Positions 863 to 21,591 of a stretch of DNA of 21,723 nucleotides are shown here, piece after piece. Position numbers and translations under genes: made by a program. This stretch comes from a virus, in IMG/VR virus record IMGVR_UViG_3300034160_000008, positions 1 to 21,723 of that record. One strand, 5' to 3'. Under the pieces are notes generated by a model that saw only the letters and a list, made by a program, of their open reading frames with translations, ran no database searches and had not been told where the DNA came from. Numbering within the stretch: the first letter of the stretch is position 1; every line of letters begins with the position of its first letter.

Positions 863-1093
863 ATGAGCACCATCATAGAACTTGGCGAAAGCATTGCATC
901 GTTTGAAGATTCGCTGAGCCAGATTGAGCAAGGCTTAAACATTAAGCTGGGTATACTTAGTAATCAACGCGCAGATTTGTACAAATTGATTGATGCGCAA
1001 TATCAGACTTCAATCACTGAGATTGAAACTATGCTCAAGGCTATTAAGCGATTGCGCGGTATAGACGAGGATCAAGTAACACTAGGCAGGTAA
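863..1093 (+). CDS. Small coiled-coil hypothetical protein
   Basis: This 76-residue protein is predicted from its sequence to be almost wholly helical, with regular hydrophobic spacing (IIELGESIASFEDSLSQIEQ and later ITEIETMLKAIKRL). That is typical of a small coiled coil or helical hairpin. An AAGGAG site at 848-853 is nine bases before the ATG. An earlier ATG at 856 is in another frame. It is the last gene of the plus-strand block, and a strong terminator hairpin begins directly after its stop. Function unknown; small acidic-helical phage proteins of this sort are often host-interaction or accessory proteins, but nothing here proves that. Confidence 0.65.
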   Translation: MSTIIELGESIASFEDSLSQIEQGLNIKLGILSNQRADLYKLIDAQYQTSITEIETMLKAIKRLRGIDEDQVTLGR

Positions 1094-1094
1094 T

Positions 1095-1134
1095 AAAAAG
1101 CCCTAGGTACCGTACTGGCGCCTAGGGCCTTTTT
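1095..1134. terminator. Bidirectional Rho-independent terminator
   Basis: A perfect 8-bp stem pairs GCCCTAGG (1100-1107) with CCTAGGGC (1121-1128). On the plus strand it is followed by CTTTTT. On the minus strand it is followed by the complement of the A-run at 1095-1099, i.e. TTTTT. It sits exactly where the plus-strand block and the minus-strand late region converge, so it probably stops both transcripts. Confidence 0.85.
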
Positions 1135-1137
1135 GTA

Positions 1138-1185
1138 TCAGCAGCCCGGCTTGGGCTTCGGCTTGGTCTTCTTTTTCTTAGCCAT
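1138..1185 (-). CDS. 15-residue Lys/Pro-rich mini-gene
   Basis: A tiny open frame encodes MAKKKKTKPKPKPGC and then a TGA at 1138-1140. The reason to take it seriously is an excellent ribosome site, AAAGGAG, five bases before the ATG at 1185. It is placed immediately after the last late gene, whose stop codon lies at 1198-1200, and just before the terminator. The peptide is an alternating Lys-Pro tail ending in a lone cysteine. I recall similar very short Lys-rich open frames in other phage genomes but cannot name a family. It could be a real peptide, or the ribosome site could serve another purpose. Confidence 0.5.
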   Translation of the reverse strand: MAKKKKTKPKPKPGC

Positions 1186-1197
1186 GTTTACTCCTTT

Positions 1198-2043
1198 CTA
1201 TCCGAGGTAGGATCTGAGTGACGGCCAGCCTTGGTCCTGCAAACCTTGAGCCATGTACGCCTTCTTAGCTTCCTCATCCATTTTAGAGTTCTTCATCCAG
1301 TAAGGCTCAGGTGCTTTGCCAAAGCTTCCAAAAATCTTCTGCATCAAGCTAAGTGGCTCAGTCGAGGGAGGATCGCCTGCAGCAGACACTACAGTCTGAC
1401 CTGTAGGGTTTGTATCATACTGGAATGGAGGGACGTATTCACCGCCCGAATAGGCTCCAGGCTGAGTCATCATTGCAGGAAGATTGTACTTAAAAGCATC
1501 TACAAACTGGCCACCCGAATACGCAGCAGGCTGATCGCCCTGCGCAGGCACCTTGTAGCTTCCACTCAAAGCCAGTGCATTGCTAAGGCGATTGCTCCAG
1601 CCATGTCCACCCATGGGGTTATTAGCAGACCAGCCTACCGGGCGTTCATACCCAATAGCGTGCTTCATAGCACTAGTCATGTCAGTAGCTTGGGCAAGCC
1701 TACCCCCTACCCCGGCTTCAGACATGGCACCAGGAAGTGGGAGCGTTTTACCAGGGCTATTCGGATCAGGCAATCCTTTAAGTTCGTTCTGAACAAATGC
1801 CAGCTGGGTGTCAAAGCTTAAAGGAGAAGAACCTTGCTTTGCTGCAAACGCCATAAGATTGGCTTTACGTTCTCGGTTCCACTGGCCAATACCAATCGAG
1901 GTTCCAGGGTCTCGCGGATTACGAGCGTTAGGATTCAGGCCCTGGCCACTTTCCTGCTGAAGATTACCTACAATAGCTGCAGCCTGCACGGGCGTCCAGC
2001 CAGCCTTAATAAAGTACTGATAAGCGTACTGAGCGCGATCCAT
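1198..2043 (-). CDS. Virion-associated lysozyme (phage tail lysozyme-like)
   Basis: This 281-residue protein has an N-terminal domain (about 1-150) matching the phage tail lysozyme pattern. It has a helix with AGWTPVQAAAIVGNLQQESG, placing the probable catalytic Glu at residue 31, then GIGQWNRERK at 51-60. Such proteins cut peptidoglycan during genome entry. The C-terminal half is low complexity and holds two imperfect repeats, AYSGGQFVDAFKYN (174-187) and AYSGGEYVPPFQYD (197-210), then a Lys-rich helical tail. A GAGGAG site lies six bases before the ATG at 2043. The gene follows the large internal-protein genes, which fits an ejected or tail-tip enzyme rather than the lysis endolysin, which is a separate gene at 10774-11226. 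Confidence 0.75.
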   Translation of the reverse strand: MDRAQYAYQYFIKAGWTPVQAAAIVGNLQQESGQGLNPNARNPRDPGTSIGIGQWNRERKANLMAFAAKQGSSPLSFDTQLAFVQNELKGLPDPNSPGKTLPLPGAMSEAGVGGRLAQATDMTSAMKHAIGYERPVGWSANNPMGGHGWSNRLSNALALSGSYKVPAQGDQPAAYSGGQFVDAFKYNLPAMMTQPGAYSGGEYVPPFQYDTNPTGQTVVSAAGDPPSTEPLSLMQKIFGSFGKAPEPYWMKNSKMDEEAKKAYMAQGLQDQGWPSLRSYLG

Positions 2044-2053
2044 GGCTCACTCC

Positions 2054-4021
2054 TCAATGATTATTCAGTTGATACAAAATACCTGCGCGTCCAAGGTTTC
2101 CAGACAGCGTAGAGGCCTTCTTACCCTTTGCCAAAAACTTAGCAAGCTCCTCTTTCGTATCAATACCTGCAGCGTGCAAGAACTCTTTATTTGTAGCATT
2201 CCTACGCAAAAAGTTTACAAGTCCTGCGCCCATTGCCGCCATAGCAATACCCGGGTGAGCAGCGACGTTACTCATACCGTAAGTCCAGTTGCCAAGGCTA
2301 AATGAACCTTGACCAATTTTATTCAGCACCGAATGAACAATGCCCGGCGTATCACCCTTACGATCAGTAAGAGACCTATAGGCTTCATGGCCAAGAGTCT
2401 CAAAATCACGCTGCTTAACAACGTCATCGCCAAGTATAACAGGCATTTTCTTGCCCTGGCCATAACCGCTAATAGGTGCAGTCGCAGAAGACCCCGGCTT
2501 CACGCCTTCAACCTTTTTAACAAGGTCACCTGCATAGCCAATACGATAAGAGTTCTGCAGGTTGTTGGCTTGGTCAGGCTCGAGCACTTTTCTAAAGTCT
2601 GTGTACGTTTTTATGGCTGATTTAGAGGCCTGCTTAGTACCTTCCTGGCCAGCTTTCAAAGCAGCCTTTCTAGCTGCAATTTGCTTAGCAGCTTCGTCAG
2701 CCCCATGAATCTCAGGATGAGAATACGCAATGCCGTTAGTGAGCTCATCATGAATAGGCATCAAAGCATCTTTAAGGTTAGGATCTTTTTCAATAGCGTC
2801 TTCAATAACCTTTCGAGCTGCAATAGCATTACGCGACTCATAGTTAAGTCGGTCTACACCAGGCGTATCTCTTCCACCTTGCTGGTAAATTAGCTTTCTA
2901 ACCTTGTCAGCCACTGCCTGCAAAGGAGTAAGCTGTCGAGACCGACCTTCCAAAAGCTTATTAACCATAGCGCCTGCTGTAGCATGATTAGAATCAGCAG
3001 TGCTGTTTTGGATACCTCGGTATACCTCATCAACCTGGCTATCCTTAGCTGCATTAAGCTGGGCAATATGATCATCTACGCCAGGCGCAGTCTTACCCAT
3101 ACCCATAGCATCTTCAATGTAGCGAGTCACTCGGCCAACAGCATCATCGTTACGAGACTTGAGTGCTCCCATAAGGGTAGCCGACTTCTCAGGCTCCGAA
3201 CTAACAATGTCTTGAAGCCTACGCTTTGTAGACGTATTGGGCGCTACAAAATCAACCGTCCTAGACGGCACATCCAAGTTGCGGGCTTCAGCAAGCAATT
3301 CAGGAGTATTTGTAGGCATGTCTCTTGCCACCTGTTTAGACACGCTAATGTCGGGCCGCACAAGTTGACCTGCACCATGCTGGGCAAGAGCAGTTAGCAA
3401 AGTAGCGGTTAGACCAGCTCCTTTTGACTCAGTATTGTCTGCTACTAGTTTACCAGCTACAGCTGGTGCAAAAGACTTTATAACTTCCTTACCAATCGAC
3501 TTGAGCGTTGCTCCTTTCGTAAAAGGAATAGCTGCCTCAATTGTGTTAGGAATAAGATACTGTGCCCAATCTTCACCAGCGTTAATAGGCTTGTGCATTA
3601 CCCCTTTATCTTCGAGGTACTTGTTCATGTTGTCAGTACTCGGCAAGAGCCCTGCAGAGTTAGCCGCACCAAGTAGAGCGCCTGCTGGGTTAGCAATCTT
3701 CATAGCCCCAGCAGCAAAAGGCTTAGCCACATCGGGAACGGCACTCATAACACTATTGTACATTTCGCCAGTGGAACCTGGCATACCCATAATGTCAGTA
3801 CCGATTCTTTCGGCGCTAGTACCTAGGACCTTGCCAATCTGCTTCAGCATGGTCATATCCCAGTTGGCGTAGGGGCTAGCTTCAGGCGGCGCATTAAGCG
3901 CTTTCAAAGCAGCTTGCTGCTCAGGCGTCAAGCCAGTGGCTGCGGGTGCAGAAGGAGCAGCTACAGCTGTGCCATCGTTAAAAAGCTTAAGGGCTTCTTC
4001 CTGTTCCTTAGTGAGGGGCAT
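2054..4021 (-). CDS. Large putative internal virion / DNA-ejection protein
   Basis: A 655-residue, Ala/Lys-rich, mainly helical protein. The N-terminus carries two copies of an LTxEQxxALKxxN motif (residues 3-17 and 31-45) separated by an Ala/Pro linker. A hydrophobic, Gly/Ala-rich stretch near the C-terminus (AHPGIAMAAMGAGLVNFLRR) could touch membrane. No enzymatic motif is visible. Its start overlaps the preceding gene's stop (TAATG), and the virion lysozyme follows ten bases after its stop. Size, helical content and position beside a lysozyme resemble the ejection or internal-core genes of podoviruses. That is a placement-based inference; the sequence itself matches no family I can name. 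Confidence 0.6.
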   Translation of the reverse strand: MPLTKEQEEALKLFNDGTAVAAPSAPAATGLTPEQQAALKALNAPPEASPYANWDMTMLKQIGKVLGTSAERIGTDIMGMPGSTGEMYNSVMSAVPDVAKPFAAGAMKIANPAGALLGAANSAGLLPSTDNMNKYLEDKGVMHKPINAGEDWAQYLIPNTIEAAIPFTKGATLKSIGKEVIKSFAPAVAGKLVADNTESKGAGLTATLLTALAQHGAGQLVRPDISVSKQVARDMPTNTPELLAEARNLDVPSRTVDFVAPNTSTKRRLQDIVSSEPEKSATLMGALKSRNDDAVGRVTRYIEDAMGMGKTAPGVDDHIAQLNAAKDSQVDEVYRGIQNSTADSNHATAGAMVNKLLEGRSRQLTPLQAVADKVRKLIYQQGGRDTPGVDRLNYESRNAIAARKVIEDAIEKDPNLKDALMPIHDELTNGIAYSHPEIHGADEAAKQIAARKAALKAGQEGTKQASKSAIKTYTDFRKVLEPDQANNLQNSYRIGYAGDLVKKVEGVKPGSSATAPISGYGQGKKMPVILGDDVVKQRDFETLGHEAYRSLTDRKGDTPGIVHSVLNKIGQGSFSLGNWTYGMSNVAAHPGIAMAAMGAGLVNFLRRNATNKEFLHAAGIDTKEELAKFLAKGKKASTLSGNLGRAGILYQLNNH

Positions 4022-7392: not shown

Positions 7393-7718
7393 GCCTTGTT
7401 ACCCGTTTCTAGAGCCTCGATACGCTTCAATGCGTCTTGTAAAGCAACTTCCAACATATCAAGCTTATCAGCCGACTTGTTAAATGTTTCAGCAATCATC
7501 TCTTCTGCAGCTACATCTGACAGGGCTTCTAGTGGAGCTACATGAAGATACGGTACAGTGTTTGGATCTGCCACCAATGCATCATAAAGCGCTTCAACGT
7601 CAAACTCTGCGCCTGTATCCTCTCTTACAGCTGTAAAAGGTATCCAGCCATACTTGGGATGATTGATCTCACAATCAATAGTGGTCTCAGTCGAATAGTA
7701 CGGATTACGATATTCCAT
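7389..7718 (-). CDS. Putative tail-fibre assembly / XkdW-like protein
   Basis: A 109-residue protein starting [20 protein letters not shown] and continuing PKYGWIPFTA. This opening is typical of small phage proteins encoded just after tail-fibre genes (tail fibre chaperone or XkdW/DUF4376-like). The C-terminus is a predicted coiled coil (KLDMLEVALQDALKRIEALE). The frame is open further upstream to 7838, but the ATG at 7718 overlaps the stop of the collagen-like fibre gene (TAATG). That, together with the familiar N-terminus, decides the start. Its likely job is folding or attaching the fibre encoded directly before it; this is inferred from position and the N-terminal pattern. Confidence 0.65.
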   Translation of the reverse strand: MEYRNPYYSTETTIDCEINHPKYGWIPFTAVREDTGAEFDVEALYDALVADPNTVPYLHVAPLEALSDVAAEEMIAETFNKSADKLDMLEVALQDALKRIEALETGNKA

Positions 7719-8497
7719 TATGCGTACCTTACCCAAAGGGATGGAGAACCCGCAGTTGTATTTGCCGCTTGCCCAAGTAGACGCCATGAGCCAGCTGGTG
7801 CGGCTGCACCGGCAGGTATACCACTGCCATGTGCCCATCGCAAACCCGAGCCGGCCTGCACAGAATCTACGACCATAGCAGCTGGAGGTGTTCTGGCAAG
7901 AAAACCATAGGTTCCAACAGCGCCGTAGCCTAGTCCTGCTGTGGCAGCTAGTACATTAGCCGTAGTTACACTTGCAGATGAACCAGCTGGACCCTGAGGA
8001 CCCGTAGGACCAGTGGCCCCATCCAAACCGTTTGTACCATTTGTACCATTTGTACCCGCAGGACCTTGTGGACCTGTCGGACCCGTAGGACCGGCCGGAC
8101 CTTGAGGACCCGTGGGACCAACAGGCCCACCGGACGGGCCAGTGGCACCCGTAGCACCTTGCGGACCAGTAGGTCCTGGGACAGTACTATCTGCTCCAGT
8201 AGCGCCTGTCGGGCCTATAGGCCCTTGAGGACCAGTTGGACCCGTCGGACCAGCAGGGCCTTGGGGACCAGTTGGACCAGGGGGGCCTCCAGACGGACCT
8301 GTCGGACCAGTAGGACCCGCAGGACCCGTCGGACCAGTAGCGCCACTTCCGCCGCCAGACGCAATAAACTCTTCAAATTCATTCTTGCTAAGCTTAGTGT
8401 CAAGTGCGCGCTGCACAGCAGTACGATTATTCTGCTGATCATTTTCGCTATACTGCTTGCTGGGCCGGGGTAGTGACGGCCTGTACATGTCGCTCAT
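7718..8497 (-). CDS. Collagen-like tail fibre protein
   Basis: A 259-residue protein in three parts. Residues 1-51 form a probable virion-attachment region ([20 protein letters not shown]). Residues 52-172 are collagen-like Gly-X-Y triplets, mostly [12 protein letters not shown], broken at SGGPP, DSTVP and SGGPV. The last 87 residues form a non-repetitive, Ala/Gly-rich C-terminal domain ([19 protein letters not shown]) that probably trimerises or binds receptor. Collagen-like segments in phage fibres form rigid triple helices. The start overlaps the nozzle gene's stop (ATGA) and the stop overlaps the assembly-type gene (TAATG). Confidence 0.85.
7982..8344 (-). repeat. Gly-X-Y collagen-like coding repeat
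   Basis: About 40 Gly-X-Y triplets, with an internal duplication: the sequence PSGGP(P/V)[10 protein letters not shown] and about 25 following residues occur twice. At 8031-8057 there is a true DNA tandem repeat, three copies of the 9-mer TTTGTACCA (the last with a final C), encoding GTNGTNGTN. Confidence 0.85.
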
Positions 8498-14273: not shown

Positions 14274-14540
14274 TTAGTAGAGTGCTACAAGAGAGCCGGC
14301 AGACGTGCCTGTTGCATTTACTCGACTGGTCTGGATTGGAAGGACAGAACCTGCCAGTACGCCCGTAAATAGCACAGTAGTCGAGCTGTTGGGAAGAACG
14401 CAAGTGATGTTGCCGGCAGTGCCGACATAGATACCGCGAGTAATGTAAGGCAAGCTAGTCACATCGCTGGGCGTAATCGCACCAAACTGCGGTGAGGACT
14501 GGATACCCGAATTACCCGGACGAATTGCATGGTCAACCAT
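14274..14540 (-). CDS. Small protein resembling GTA spike-base family end
   Basis: An 88-residue beta-rich protein: AITPSDVTSLPYITRGIYVG, then TAGNITCVLPNSSTTVLFTG, then LAGSVLPIQTSRVNATGTSA and GSLVALY. The pattern (T-P-x-D-x-T-x-L-P-x-x-T-R-x-I/L-Y-V-G-T-A-G, later V-N-A-T-G-T-x-A) is shared with small phage virion proteins and with the spike-base protein described in the Rhodobacter gene transfer agent. A role in decorating the capsid or a tail spike base is possible; the similarity is from memory of the pattern, not a search. It lies ten bases upstream of the adaptor gene. Confidence 0.65.
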   Translation of the reverse strand: MVDHAIRPGNSGIQSSPQFGAITPSDVTSLPYITRGIYVGTAGNITCVLPNSSTTVLFTGVLAGSVLPIQTSRVNATGTSAGSLVALY

Positions 14541-16654: not shown

Positions 16655-17698
16655 TTAGTAACCGGTCTGCTTAGTCCTTGCACGCGGTGCCGACACAAGA
16701 AGCGTGGCAGCAACGTCGTCAATTGAACCGCTCTGCGCAGCACGAGCTAACGCAGCTTTTTCAGCCTTGACCGCATTCATCTTAGCACCAAAATTCTGCG
16801 AGCCCGGCCGAAGGAGAGGCTTGGGCTGCTGCCGCGGAGCACCGGCTGCTTTACCCTGACGAGCATTTTTGGCCTCAACCAACGCACGATATTTCATAGC
16901 ATCAGTGAGAACCAGCAAATGACGATGATCAACAATGCTAGCAATTTCTTCGTCATTAAACCCGTAAGCACGACCCGTCTTATTCCAGTTTTCGCTAAGC
17001 TTGCGAGCACTTTCAGCATTCTTAAGCTCAGGCATCTTTTTCATAAGAATGTCGGCCTGCTCAGCCGCAAACTCTTCCTGGCGCTTAGCCATCAGTGCAC
17101 GCTGCTGTTGCTGAGTCTCATAAGCAGCCTGCTGTACCTGCCGGCGCCTATTCTGCGTCTCTTGAATCTTGTCTTTCTCAAGCAAATAACGGCTCGGATC
17201 AAGCCTACGCAGCTGTTCCAAATCAACCTCGGGCTGCTCAGCCTGGGCAAGAATAGAATCCAAAGCAGTGAGGCGCTCATGCGTAGCGTTAAGCTGCTTC
17301 ATAAGCTCAGTCGTAACAACTTCCTGCTGCTTACGATACTCGCTAGCCTGCTGGACGCGCTGTTCAATTGCCTTGTTACCGCTATACGCGGCCTTCAATT
17401 CTTTCAGCTTAGCCTTAGTGGGCGCGCCATCCACAGTAACATCATACTCGACGTCATCAGGGTCTACCTGGACATCATCAGCATAATCTTCCTCAGTGTC
17501 GTCGCCTTCAAGCAGATCAACGTCTTCAAGATCAACAGAGTTGTCAACGTCGTCTTCGCCAACCTGGTCGTCACCTTCAGCCACACGGTTTGAAGGGTTA
17601 GCAGGTGTTTTGGTTACGGGCGCGTCTTCTGAGCCTACAAATAGGCTTTCAGCAACAGCGTCCAATCCGCCTTCAAATGTTTCGTTCTCGCCCGGCAT
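16655..17698 (-). CDS. Capsid scaffolding protein (putative)
   Basis: A 347-residue protein immediately before the capsid gene. Residues 1-90 are very acidic (VGEDDVDNSVDLEDVDLLEG, DDTEEDYADD). Residues about 90-235 are a long Gln/Glu/Lys-rich coiled coil (IEQRVQQASEYRKQQEVVTT, RRRQVQQAAYETQQQQRALM). The C-terminal part is basic (RQGKAAGAPRQQPKPLLRPG) and ends KQTGY. Acidic N-terminus, coiled coil and basic capsid-binding C-terminus are typical of podoviral scaffolds. It contains SNRVAEGDD at 36-44, almost identical to a segment of the capsid protein. The start overlaps the previous gene's stop (TAATG). Confidence 0.8.
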   Translation of the reverse strand: MPGENETFEGGLDAVAESLFVGSEDAPVTKTPANPSNRVAEGDDQVGEDDVDNSVDLEDVDLLEGDDTEEDYADDVQVDPDDVEYDVTVDGAPTKAKLKELKAAYSGNKAIEQRVQQASEYRKQQEVVTTELMKQLNATHERLTALDSILAQAEQPEVDLEQLRRLDPSRYLLEKDKIQETQNRRRQVQQAAYETQQQQRALMAKRQEEFAAEQADILMKKMPELKNAESARKLSENWNKTGRAYGFNDEEIASIVDHRHLLVLTDAMKYRALVEAKNARQGKAAGAPRQQPKPLLRPGSQNFGAKMNAVKAEKAALARAAQSGSIDDVAATLLVSAPRARTKQTGY

Positions 17699-18098: not shown

Positions 18099-20317
18099 TG
18101 TACGCTCTCCGTTGTTTGCTGTGCAGCCTGCTGTGCAGCCATATCGGCATCTGCTTCCATTTGTTCACGAGCTACGCCGAGCTTGTACATATCGGCATAG
18201 AATTTAAGCATTGCTGCATCACGCTTTTGCTCAGACTCAATAAGTACCGCGCGCAGGTCCTGCATATTCTTGGTCTGCTGCTGCATCAGCTCACCCTGGA
18301 GCTTCTGTACTTCTGCGGCATGCTGTTGCTGCATCTTAGCAATAGCTTCCTGGAATTTCAGCTGGTTTTTCTGAGCTTCAACCTGGACCATTTCCTTCAT
18401 GGCGTCGGCCTGCTGCTTCTGTATCATCAGCTGAGCCTGACCAGCCTGAATCTGCATATCAGAGCTCTGCTTAGAAGCTGCCTTCTGATCCTGGTCAAGT
18501 TTCTGAACCATCATCGGAGGCACCCACGGCAAGTAGTCTGTCGTGTTGTGAATGCCAGAAAGCCTCAGCATTGTAGCCCAGCTATTGCGCAGATTATCCC
18601 AATTACACAGGGGATTAGCAGGACCTGCCTTTTCAAGAAGCGCGGTCTGAAACTGAATAAGACCCTGGAGAACCATCTTCTTTTCGTCAATCTTACCAGA
18701 GCCAAGACCAACATTGATCTTGATGCTCATGTCGTCCGTCCACGCGGAAGGAACAACTGTTGCATAGCCCCACGCCGTCTTAACGCTCTGAGGCCCTTCA
18801 AGCTCGTGAATAGCCACGTTCATAATAGTATTGAACAGCGACTTAACACCAGTCTCACCAAGGTTACGCGCCATCATCTCAATGCGCGCATCACTATTAG
18901 ATACCATTGCACCTGCGCCTACACGAGACGTGGACTGCAGTGCATCTGGATCAATACCCTGGCTAAGCTTAGTAATGCCAGTGCGCTTCTCGGACACTTC
19001 TTGCATAAACTGCAGTACCGGAAGCGTTTGGGACATCGTGGCTGGCGTCACCAGCTCTTCAACCATGCCCATTTCTTTAACGCGGATAATTGCGCCAATA
19101 TCGCCATTCTTAAGATCGTTAAGGTTGACCTTAGCTTCATTGGCAGCAGTACGAGGGCTATTGACCAAGGCTGCGTTATCAATGATAGACCGCATCATTG
19201 CAGTCTGCGCATCCTGATCCTGGATCAGATCTTCAGCCAGCGAAATGGGCGCAAACACGTGGGGCTGAATGACCGACTTAGCTACTGCAAACGGCACGTA
19301 GTTCACGGGTTCGTTCGACAGCACTTCATAGTTAATGCCACCACATACAATGCGACGCAGCTCTTGAACGCCATCACCGTCAACATCAAGCCACACATAA
19401 GCTTCCGTCAGAATAATGGTCGCCGACAAAGGGTCAATGTCTTTGGTATTGTCGGTGTTAGTATTGGTGTAGCCACGACGATCATCGCGCTCAGTAGTCG
19501 TCTGCTCGTCATCAGTAGATGCAAGCTCAAGCAGGTCTTCTTCCGGGTACCCAAGAGCTACACCGTCAGCAACTGTGACCTCACGACGATGCGCTAGAAC
19601 CTGGAAGTCATACTGCGACTTTGCATTGGCGTCATAAATAAATTCTTCAGGCGGAATCGGGTCAAGATGCCAAATGGTTCTTTCAACCAGCTGGGTATAA
19701 ACATTTGTCTCTTCATCAGCTTCTGTCAGCTGAGGAGCGCCAGCCTCACCCTCGAGCAAATCCTCGGGGTCAGCTGCATCCATAGGTCCAACCAGCGCCT
19801 CAGGGGGCGAGTCCTCGGCAACTGGCTGTTCCCCCTCTGTGCCCATGCCCACCGGGGGAGGAGTGACAGGCACATAAGCGTGTACGGGGACTTTCTTTTT
19901 CTCAACCCAAACCTTGACTACACCAAGACGTGCCTTAAGAGCATCGGTAGACATAGAAATGAGCGACGTGTAACCATCGAATTTGTCATACACATGGTTA
20001 CAGAAAATGGTAGCTTCCTTAGTAGACTTTTCACCCTTCGGGTCATCGGTCCAAAATTCAGCAATCGTGTCAGTCTGCGTAAAGATACGCGCCACTGAAG
20101 GGATAACGGAATTAACACCGGACCGCACGCAGTCCACAATAACCTGGGAACGGCCAGGAAGGCTGTCAAGATCGGTGCCACCCTGATAGTACAAGTCTGC
20201 CAGCTCGCGATTGGGCTGCAGGTCCTGTTCCATAAAGTTTACGGCATCTTGCAATACACGCTGCATGTACTTCTGTACACGCGCAGGAGTAATGCCCTTG
20301 ACTTCTTTTTTAGCCAT
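18095..20317 (-). CDS. Portal protein, SU10-like
   Basis: A 740-residue portal, the ring through which DNA enters and leaves the head. The N-terminal region is typical of long podoviral portals: FMEQDLQPNRELADLYYQGG and LPGRSQVIVDCVRSGVNSVI, then ARIFTQTDTIAEFWTDDPKG. The core includes KRTGITKLSQGIDPDALQST and RVGAGAMVSNSDARIEMMAR. Residues about 610-735 form a long Gln-rich helix (the barrel region; IAKMQQQHAAEVQKLQGELM). An acidic Pro-rich insertion lies at about 150-205 (EDLLEGEAGAPQLTEADEET). The ATG overlaps the terminase stop (TAATG). Size and order after terminase leave little doubt. Confidence 0.88.
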   Translation of the reverse strand: MAKKEVKGITPARVQKYMQRVLQDAVNFMEQDLQPNRELADLYYQGGTDLDSLPGRSQVIVDCVRSGVNSVIPSVARIFTQTDTIAEFWTDDPKGEKSTKEATIFCNHVYDKFDGYTSLISMSTDALKARLGVVKVWVEKKKVPVHAYVPVTPPPVGMGTEGEQPVAEDSPPEALVGPMDAADPEDLLEGEAGAPQLTEADEETNVYTQLVERTIWHLDPIPPEEFIYDANAKSQYDFQVLAHRREVTVADGVALGYPEEDLLELASTDDEQTTTERDDRRGYTNTNTDNTKDIDPLSATIILTEAYVWLDVDGDGVQELRRIVCGGINYEVLSNEPVNYVPFAVAKSVIQPHVFAPISLAEDLIQDQDAQTAMMRSIIDNAALVNSPRTAANEAKVNLNDLKNGDIGAIIRVKEMGMVEELVTPATMSQTLPVLQFMQEVSEKRTGITKLSQGIDPDALQSTSRVGAGAMVSNSDARIEMMARNLGETGVKSLFNTIMNVAIHELEGPQSVKTAWGYATVVPSAWTDDMSIKINVGLGSGKIDEKKMVLQGLIQFQTALLEKAGPANPLCNWDNLRNSWATMLRLSGIHNTTDYLPWVPPMMVQKLDQDQKAASKQSSDMQIQAGQAQLMIQKQQADAMKEMVQVEAQKNQLKFQEAIAKMQQQHAAEVQKLQGELMQQQTKNMQDLRAVLIESEQKRDAAMLKFYADMYKLGVAREQMEADADMAAQQAAQQTTESVQ

Positions 20318-21591
20318 TATACGTACGTCCCTCTAGCGTCTCGCGCAATCGGCTCATCCCAATCGGAATGCGATGCGCTAAAGTATTCGTTCATGCTCAT
20401 GATGGCATATCGCATAGCATCAGCACCGTTGGAATACTTGTCATGCCGAGGCTTATTGCGGAGAACCTGGTGCTTGCTGTTGTAATCGCTACGATAGTTG
20501 CGCAGCGCTTTGATGCCTTCTTTACAGCCTTCAGCATCAAACCACATACGCGAAAATGCCATGCGCACAGCGTTGATGCCATCCTCTACGCTAGTACGGC
20601 TCAGCACTTCTACATTCACATTGCGGTCTTCAAAGATCTGAACGCGGGATTTACCCACACCAAGCTCACGCACCTTCGCATCATGCGGCAGGTATACGGT
20701 GTCTACGGGATAGTCCAAGTTCTTGAGCCACGTGATATAATGGTCAAGACTCTTTCCTGTGTTGGCGTAGTATTTAAGGAAGCGCCATTCGTTTGCGTAC
20801 AGCTGGTAAACCCAAATCGCCGTAGCATCCGCCATGCCCAAGTCAATAGCAGCGTAGACTTCCAGGCTCTCGTCTCTGGCCACACGCTTAATGCGCCCTT
20901 CTTCTTGGGCGGTCTCAATATTAGATGCATAATAGTTACCCGGGAATGCAGCGGAGAAGCTAACTTCATACTCACGCTCAAACGCTTCAGGCGTCAGCAT
21001 CTTTCTTGCAGCAGCTAGTTCCTCGGGGTCCAGGATATGGCTCTCACTGGCCTTCAGGCGCATGTGGTACCAGTCTGGGTCATTCTGCGCATTCTGATAC
21101 AGGTCGAAGAACACGTCTTCACCCATCGGGGTACCGATGAAGATAGCCTTACCCTTACGGTCTGAAAGAGCAGGACGTACAACACCCTCCCAAATCGCCG
21201 ATAGATCCATGGACGCCGGCTCGTCAAATGCAGCCGTATCAGCATAAATACCACGAATACGATCAGGGTTTTCAGCCCCGTACAGCCTAATAGAAGCACC
21301 AGTAGGAAAAGTGCACCGTAGTTCGGCCTCATGGAAGTCCATACCCGGGATTTCACGAGTATAGTGCTTTAAATATTTCCAGGAAATATCTTTTGCCTGG
21401 GCAAATGAAGGAGCAATGAAGATACCACGCGGGTTAGGCAACGGGCACTGGAGTACCGTCTTAATCTGCTCATTCAGAACAGACACAGTCTTACCAGCAC
21501 GTCGATGGCATACCAGAATAGAAAAGCGCTTACCCGAGTTATGGAACGGGATAAACGCCTTTCTCGGCTGATATGGGATATTAATCTTCAA
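20317..21591 (-). CDS. Terminase large subunit
   Basis: A 424-residue DNA-packaging motor. The ATPase domain has Walker A CHRRAGKT (28-35), Walker B with the catalytic Glu in AAFDEPA (Asp123, Glu124) and the coupling motif IFIGTPMG (150-157). The nuclease domain has probable metal-binding residues Asp250 (AIDLGMADAT), Asp304 (HDAK) and Asp391 (YSNGADAMRYA). The start is a TTG at 21591: an in-frame stop lies two codons before it, no ATG is available until residue 84, and AGGA lies nine bases upstream. It overlaps the previous gene's stop (TTGA). It is followed by the portal gene, with overlapping codons. Confidence 0.93.
   Translation of the reverse strand: MKINIPYQPRKAFIPFHNSGKRFSILVCHRRAGKTVSVLNEQIKTVLQCPLPNPRGIFIAPSFAQAKDISWKYLKHYTREIPGMDFHEAELRCTFPTGASIRLYGAENPDRIRGIYADTAAFDEPASMDLSAIWEGVVRPALSDRKGKAIFIGTPMGEDVFFDLYQNAQNDPDWYHMRLKASESHILDPEELAAARKMLTPEAFEREYEVSFSAAFPGNYYASNIETAQEEGRIKRVARDESLEVYAAIDLGMADATAIWVYQLYANEWRFLKYYANTGKSLDHYITWLKNLDYPVDTVYLPHDAKVRELGVGKSRVQIFEDRNVNVEVLSRTSVEDGINAVRMAFSRMWFDAEGCKEGIKALRNYRSDYNSKHQVLRNKPRHDKYSNGADAMRYAIMSMNEYFSASHSDWDEPIARDARGTYV

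Follow-up and report, generated by a model that had tools for sequence, protein, structure and literature searches.

The window, by which the whole 21.7-kb virus record analysed here is meant, is a fragment of a tailed phage. Between positions 21591 and 1198, its minus strand encodes the large terminase, the portal, the major head protein, an endolysin and a 281-aa tail-lysin/tape-like protein, as identified by PHROGs. Nine ORFs of the window were submitted to this search, and the terminase, portal, head, endolysin and tail matches among them all lie on the minus strand. Among the matches listed for the portal and head proteins are those of LUZ24-like phages, rhizobial phages and others, with identities of about 25-40%, and the 281-aa protein is similar in its N-terminal part to phage tail-associated lysins or tape-measure proteins (PHROGs, tblastn). 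Judging by position and the gene order of phiM5, the product of the 655-aa gene may be an internal virion protein. A long collagen-like GPTGPQGP repeat is encoded in a 259-aa ORF of the late region (7718-8497, minus strand). No tRNA was found in a tRNA scan of the window, and a covariance-model scan against Rfam at gathering scores returned no match.

The minus-strand ORF for the peptide MAKKKKTKPKPKPGC starts with ATG at 1185 and ends with TGA at 1140-1138. The peptide consists of 7 Lys, 3 Pro, a single C-terminal Cys and other residues that include no acidic, aromatic or Leu/Ile/Val residue, and has a charge of about +7. The stop codon of the 281-aa ORF (1200-1198) abuts the AAAGGAG ribosome site, and the ATG of the peptide lies 12 nt past that stop. 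A 15-residue ORF preceded at five bases by AAAGGAG had been described in a sequence-only reading of this DNA; the sequence and its re-translation confirm this and place the ORF on the minus strand, which was unstated there. The same reading held that the ORF closes the late region before a terminator. Given that the late genes identified are all on the minus strand and that the ORFs at 2-1093 judged to be genes run along the plus strand, the late region of the contig indeed ends with the peptide, and the hairpin at 1095-1133 agrees with the second part of that claim. The record of the window contains the exact 48-mer a single time, and a looser scan of the window gave two rows, the MAKKKKTKPKPKPGC peptide and a TTG-started 10-mer, LRTAGKPKSP. 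A gene of 15 codons would normally be skipped by standard gene finders.

Features of the window at and around the micropeptide gene, with the evidence for each
Feature	Position	Strand	Evidence or detail
15-codon micropeptide gene MAKKKKTKPKPKPGC	1138..1185	minus	sequence, re-translation, composition, family scans
Shine-Dalgarno (SD) AAAGGAG	1191..1197	minus	spacer TAAAC, 5 nt, then ATG
281-aa gene, directly upstream of the peptide	1198..2043	minus	PHROGs phrog_9570 and others; tblastn
655-aa gene, upstream	2054..4021	minus	PHROGs: no match
Strong bidirectional terminator-like hairpin (A-tract / GCCCTAGG stem / T-tract)	1095..1133	minus	RNA fold
76-aa convergent ORF beyond the terminator	863..1093	plus	PHROGs: no match
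88-aa phrog_12296 gene (tail-fibre-like)	14274..14540	minus	PHROGs
Large terminase, far (5') end of the late block	20317..21591	minus	phrog_2, 3.1e-32

With all 15 residues fixed, no match to the peptide was found in viral contigs. A scan for KPKPKPGC followed by a stop identified two other viral contigs, and in both the motif ends a short M-started ORF with a K-rich start (MPKKGKPKPKPGC and MAKSKGSKSKPKPKPGC, the latter with AAAGGAG). The shorter key KPKPGC-stop returned 21 stretches, adding L007 (MAKKPPKKPMKPGKPKPGC) and L013 (MAKKPKPRPKPKPGC), which both start with MAKK although the pattern did not require it; the two contigs of the longer key are also among the 21, a further stretch, L016 (MGKKKKPKPGC), lies inside an exonuclease gene, and the remaining 16 were off-plan. 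When a MAKK..KPGC pattern was applied to viral contigs, five of six matches were in-frame ORFs of the same plan, and two (L024 and L026) are doubtful. Two SD-anchored patterns added L039/L068/L070, L040/L042, L052 and L054, as well as L087, L088, L089, L090, L093, L098 and L099. Besides the window, the IMG/VR pattern scans thus gave 20 loci, which fall into 10 lineages when grouped by eye from peptide and flanks. These peptides, for which the name KPGC micropeptides is coined here, have 13-19 residues, usually a MAKK start, a body dominated by Lys/Arg and Pro that contains no hydrophobic anchor, one Cys and the end PGC-stop. Most have an SD sequence of their own, and many lie within operons for structural or packaging proteins or close an operon ahead of a hairpin.

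The composition was compared for 14 distinct sequences, a list that includes the doubtful L024/L026 type and excludes the doubtful L016 and L051/L084 types. Each has 5-7 basic residues, 3-6 Pro and at most one acidic residue, the latter being one Glu in one variant only. All 14 consist of Lys, Arg and Pro to at least half, carry a single Cys as the last residue and have no aromatic or Leu/Ile/Val residue. The window peptide agrees with the plan in length, start and PGC end, partly by construction as its end was the search key, and it has the SD sequence (AAAGGAG), while the member L003 has no SD core. Every family query fixed the PGC end, and some also fixed ATGG, MAK or MAKK, so that the constancy of these positions does not count as independent evidence; what appeared unprompted was the K/P body and, with the KPKPKPGC-stop and KPKPGC-stop keys, the MAKK start. 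Sister peptides with a different C-terminus would escape such scans. In 1.19 Mb of examined loci, which are partly redundant, only one K/P-rich SD-bearing short ORF not ending in PGC was counted (ATG-started, 9-32 aa, at least 60% K/R/P, two or more Pro, SD core).

Among 84,980 bacterial and archaeal genomes, the MAKK..KPGC pattern had 10 matches, none of which follows the plan. As this was the one pattern used genome-wide and is blind to L007, L054 and RPGC-ending members, occurrence in phages only was rejected as a firm claim. The pattern SD+MAKK..PGC gave no match in 398 phylum-restricted genomes, in two runs on nearly identical genome sets, and none in a further two. The contig name of L007 is of the style that we take to denote an isolate genome, hence prophage copies may exist. 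Separately, an identical 57-base stretch with a 13-aa ORF (MAKKSGGACNGGN) was observed in one viral contig and one Clostridia genome bin (L025, 8375-8431, minus strand; L036, 6595-6651, plus strand); it encodes a distinct tiny Lys-started peptide with Cys.

KPGC-stop is also the +1 shadow of Glu-Ala-(Gly/Arg)-Leu-Leu coding and occurs by chance inside genes, and any repeat of the scan will meet false positives of this origin. The ORF L016 (2034-2069, plus strand) was rejected as very probably such a shadow, as it lies in another frame inside a real exonuclease gene (phrog_107, residues 3-257). L024 and L026 overlap a cytidylyltransferase gene in its tail, past the part that encodes the domain, and L051 and L084 overlap an ORF with a weak tape-measure match; these four are considered doubtful because of the overlap with another plausible gene on the same strand. 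All five were excluded from the 20 counted loci. Some counted members lie under longer ORFs, either antisense (L040/L042, L052 and L088) or on the same strand (L013, L087 and L093, the L013 peptide ORF overlapping the upstream ORF by 29 nt). The overlapping ORFs of L042, L052, L088, L087, L093 and L013 have no PHROGs or Pfam match, which is not proof of their spuriousness. Nine loci with in-frame PGC ends that are not K/P-rich were discarded (L008, L010, L019, L035, L049, L056, L064, L073 and L077), as was the borderline L091 (MAKPRTTKAPVPGC), which is antisense to a longer ORF.

A fortuitous origin, i.e. a chance ORF that happens to follow an SD sequence, has to be weighed for any frame of 15 codons, the more so given the shadow exemplified by L016 in the exonuclease gene and the lack of a close relative in which the window copy might be tested directly. 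As a frame control, 54 loci were collected with an SD-anchored pattern that demands no frame. In 35 of them the two ends are out of frame, in one they are in frame with an intervening stop and in 18 they are in frame and open. Inner residues that are at least 50% K/R/P were found in 15 of the 18 open in-frame loci, compared with none of the 35 out-of-frame loci and not in the one with the stop (Fisher 9e-11). With duplicates removed the proportion is 9/12 (1.3e-7), and without the doubtful L024/L026 and L051/L084 it is 7/10 (Fisher 2.2e-6). The richness in K/R/P is confined to open in-frame matches, as coding predicts and base composition does not.

The divergence between related members points in the same direction. 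The three copies of MAKKTKPKPMKPRPGC differ pairwise by 2, 4 and 6 synonymous changes and no non-synonymous change, against an expectation of about 23% synonymous among point changes. The doubtful pair L024/L026 differs by one synonymous and no non-synonymous change, and L007 and L054 by two synonymous changes and one non-synonymous change (Lys-to-Arg). L088 and L090, which have matching flanks, differ by the in-frame loss of three codons. Divergence is thus mostly synonymous in small groups of members, the window's own copy being without a close relative for comparison. In addition, an SD core precedes the ORF in five of the six undoubted lineages found without an SD key, as opposed to 10.2% of all ATGs in the examined loci. 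On neither strand of the window is the peptide covered by another ORF of 60 aa or longer. The frame control (15/18 versus 0/36) and the synonymous divergence of other members, together with this free-standing position, argue strongly for translation and make a chance ORF very improbable, and the MAKKKKTKPKPKPGC ORF is very probably a real gene. The view of the sequence-only reading that the frame is a genuine small gene and its ribosome site a good one is thereby supported, the same plan recurring in unrelated phages. The internal control allows a 15-codon phage ORF to be recognised as a probable gene without recourse to other data than sequence.

The hairpin with A/T flanks that begins 4 nt past the peptide stop in the window folds with -25.1 kcal/mol (z -5.07), and none of 200 shuffles folded as well. 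This arrangement brings to mind attenuator leader peptides, which likewise combine a tiny ORF with an SD sequence and then a terminator-like hairpin, and raises the alternative that only the act of translation matters, the Lys-Pro codons timing the ribosome and setting read-through of the terminator. Post-stop hairpins were assessed at the member loci with mononucleotide shuffles, and strong ones were found in L003 (z -4.9), L027 (-4.0) and L004 (-3.1) besides the window (-5.1), with weaker ones (z about -2) in L042, L070, L087, L088, L090 and L093. In L007, L054, L028 and L052, however, the hairpin is no better than shuffles, and in L013 z is -0.2. As the four former loci have no such hairpin, a leader or attenuator role cannot be general. 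Furthermore, unlike attenuator leaders, the window ORF has no same-strand gene called downstream of the terminator up to the contig end, the ORFs beyond the hairpin running the opposite way, and an attenuator needs neither the MAKK start nor the terminal Cys. A role in translation timing is therefore considered improbable. A conserved RNA hairpin formed by the CCN-AAR-CCN-GGN codons themselves was rejected, since the peptide-coding stretch of the window folds no better than shuffles (z -0.74) and close members differ at third positions.

No close relative of the window phage was found in the searches made. A comparison of 8 kb of window DNA with annotated phages gave no match, and a search of viral contigs with the 655-aa neighbour gave no relative. 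For the 281-aa gene, a relative (45% identity) turned up in a single viral contig, L002, and no KPGC-type ORF is present beside it, as judged by eye and by a scan that was also empty. Likewise, none of eight annotated phage records (L101 in part, L102-L108 whole) has a member by the criteria used here. The refuting condition named in the sequence-only reading, a frame and ribosome site not conserved in close relatives, could thus be applied only by half: L002 and these records have no member, and close relatives were not found. The conservation is accordingly one across distant phages and not by synteny, and the lack of a close relative leaves no direct dN/dS for the window copy. A short blastn search of L090 against annotated phages (E up to 10) hit 111 records (40 listed); the one match examined, in Rhizobium phage PPF1, was rejected as an ordinary coding stretch in another frame. 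Bradyrhizobium phage ppBeUSDA76-2 (OP596614, L107) has a large terminase (TerL) 74% identical to that of L007. Its 52-aa Lys-rich gene at 17329-17487 (MAKHPGFKRVQAS..., no PHROGs match) is, like the L007/L054 peptide, small and basic with a MAK start, and occupies the slot directly upstream of a gene resembling the small terminase (TerS). The 52-aa product differs from a KPGC peptide in being longer, of mixed composition and without the Pro-Gly-Cys end.

The position of the members relative to TerL was surveyed with phrog_2 on 23 records, 13 of which had a match. TerL lies on the same strand downstream of the peptide at 0.3 kb in L007/L054, 1.4 kb in L028, 2.6 kb in L013, 2.7-2.9 kb in L088, L089 and L093, and 5.0 kb in L004; it is also found 0.4 kb downstream of the ORF in L016, which is probably false. 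For statistical assessment, records that lacked a phrog_2 match (10 of 23) and the doubtful G005 (L016) were excluded, and one record per lineage was used. TerL is within 3 kb downstream in four of nine lineages versus 0.47 expected under random placement (p 0.0008), and within 5.5 kb in five of nine versus 0.81 expected (p 0.0005), where the nine are eight lineages with a TerL match plus the window as a miss and both limits were picked after the distances had been seen. The position is not constant, as the peptide is not upstream of the terminase in the window, L003, L027 and the L039 group (L039/L068), which counts against the reading favoured below. By eye, the TerL ORFs of L087 and L026 contain an apparent intein-like insert near the ATP-binding motif, with Cys first and a His-Asn pair last, after which the TerL sequence resumes.

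Other neighbours also belong to the packaging or structural genes in several lineages. A match to phrog_15261, a PHROG with no assigned function, is shared by the gene directly behind the L007 peptide and the first ORF of 60 aa or more behind the L013 peptide, which are TerS-like by position, and a small terminase (phrog_51) is found at +485 from the L090 peptide. In the L039 group (e.g. L070), the peptide starts 10 nt past the major head gene (phrog_9953). Besides the window, five of 21 member records contain the tail-fibre-like phrog_12296 (L028, L087, L088, L089 and L093, at 0.4-1.2 kb downstream of the peptide), against none of 29 controls (Fisher 0.01), the 21 records including L024/L026 and the controls being 29 of the 39 non-member loci of the frame-control scan. 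These five records represent two lineages, and the link may therefore reflect shared ancestry. Helicase- and MazG-like ORFs near L027 and a resolvase-like ORF near L052 were recognised by eye, and L003 sits on a 205-kb contig.

The composition of the peptides and their gene neighbourhood tentatively suggest binding of nucleic acid or packaging together with DNA, both proposed in the sequence-only reading, and perhaps a part in the packaging process. A Lys-Pro run is extended and binds polyanions. In the absence of aromatic, Leu, Ile and Val residues, neither a fold with a hydrophobic core nor a seat in the membrane is expected, and the peptide would stay unstructured or adopt an extended, polyproline-II-like form. 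It may bind a polyanion, most plausibly DNA in late infection or packaging, the late and often packaging-linked placement favouring DNA, free or complexed with protein, as the target. The terminal thiol could cross-link two peptides or anchor the peptide to a partner; against this, the Cys would be reduced in the cytosol. The reading that is put forward here, that MAKKKKTKPKPKPGC is a translated late gene of the KPGC family whose product binds a polyanion, most plausibly DNA, and has a functional thiol, is considered to have about an even chance of being correct.

The chief rival is that the micropeptide is translated but has its target in the host, for example rRNA or the ribosome, RNA polymerase or another acidic host surface, instead of phage DNA. 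The combination of SD and ORF in most of the 11 lineages including the window (L003 having no SD core) is compatible with this, and the varied neighbours of L027, L052 and L003 would fit a portable accessory gene, which, if acting on the host, would offer a very small natural effector for study. Host take-over is usually complete by the time that packaging and structural genes are expressed, and it is with such genes that the peptide is surrounded in the window, the L039 group, L007/L054, L013, L028 and the L088 group. A host target is for this reason held to be possible though unlikely. Next in rank comes a role as a minor component of the virion, either coating an acidic surface of the particle or lying inside the head with the DNA. 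The location 10 nt past the major head gene in the L039 group and after the last late genes in the window would be in keeping with such a protein, as would the strongly basic character with no acidic residue except the one Glu, but several lineages place the peptide upstream of the terminase and not among virion genes, and this role is judged distinctly unlikely. Translation timing and then a chance origin follow in that order.

If the preferred reading of a DNA-binding peptide is extended to the family, many unrelated tailed phages may encode a late protamine-like thiol micropeptide that acts on DNA packaged or about to be packaged, by condensation, loading of the motor or cross-linking after packaging. 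This generalisation is a speculative one and, on the sequence data at hand, rather unlikely to hold in full. Annotation pipelines would have missed such a micropeptide because it is shorter than their limits. What the scans bring to light is a recurrent micropeptide of very distinctive chemistry, a polycation with one terminal thiol, which in several lineages lies next to packaging or capsid genes.

In open-licence PMC papers, none with the motifs KPKPGC, KPKPKPGC or KPRPGC was found, which does not prove their absence from print, and nothing on point regarding basic, packaged or unannotated phage micropeptides was found in titles and abstract openings of the same collection. A review of phage small proteins sets their limit at under 100 aa (PMC11323111); these are, like the KPGC peptides, short phage-encoded ORFs that were long overlooked, and a term search of its text did not find basic, lysine, proline or terminase. 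With no earlier description found in these searches, the KPGC peptides are regarded as a new family within a known kind, the phage micropeptides, and not as a new class of system. Their KPKPKP run is comparable to the Lys-Pro repeat of TonB, which is likewise expected to form an extended polyproline-II-like rod; in TonB the repeat serves as a spacer within a protein anchored in the membrane, whereas the KPGC peptide has no membrane anchor. The DNA-condensing polycations, such as protamines and the internal peptides of phage T4, are also short and highly basic, and the KPGC peptides could neutralise DNA as these do. The T4 internal peptides are cut from larger precursors. The KPGC peptide, in contrast, is encoded directly, and if its putative binding to DNA is borne out, it would represent a directly encoded phage counterpart of the protamines and call for a recount of the accessory factors of DNA packaging.
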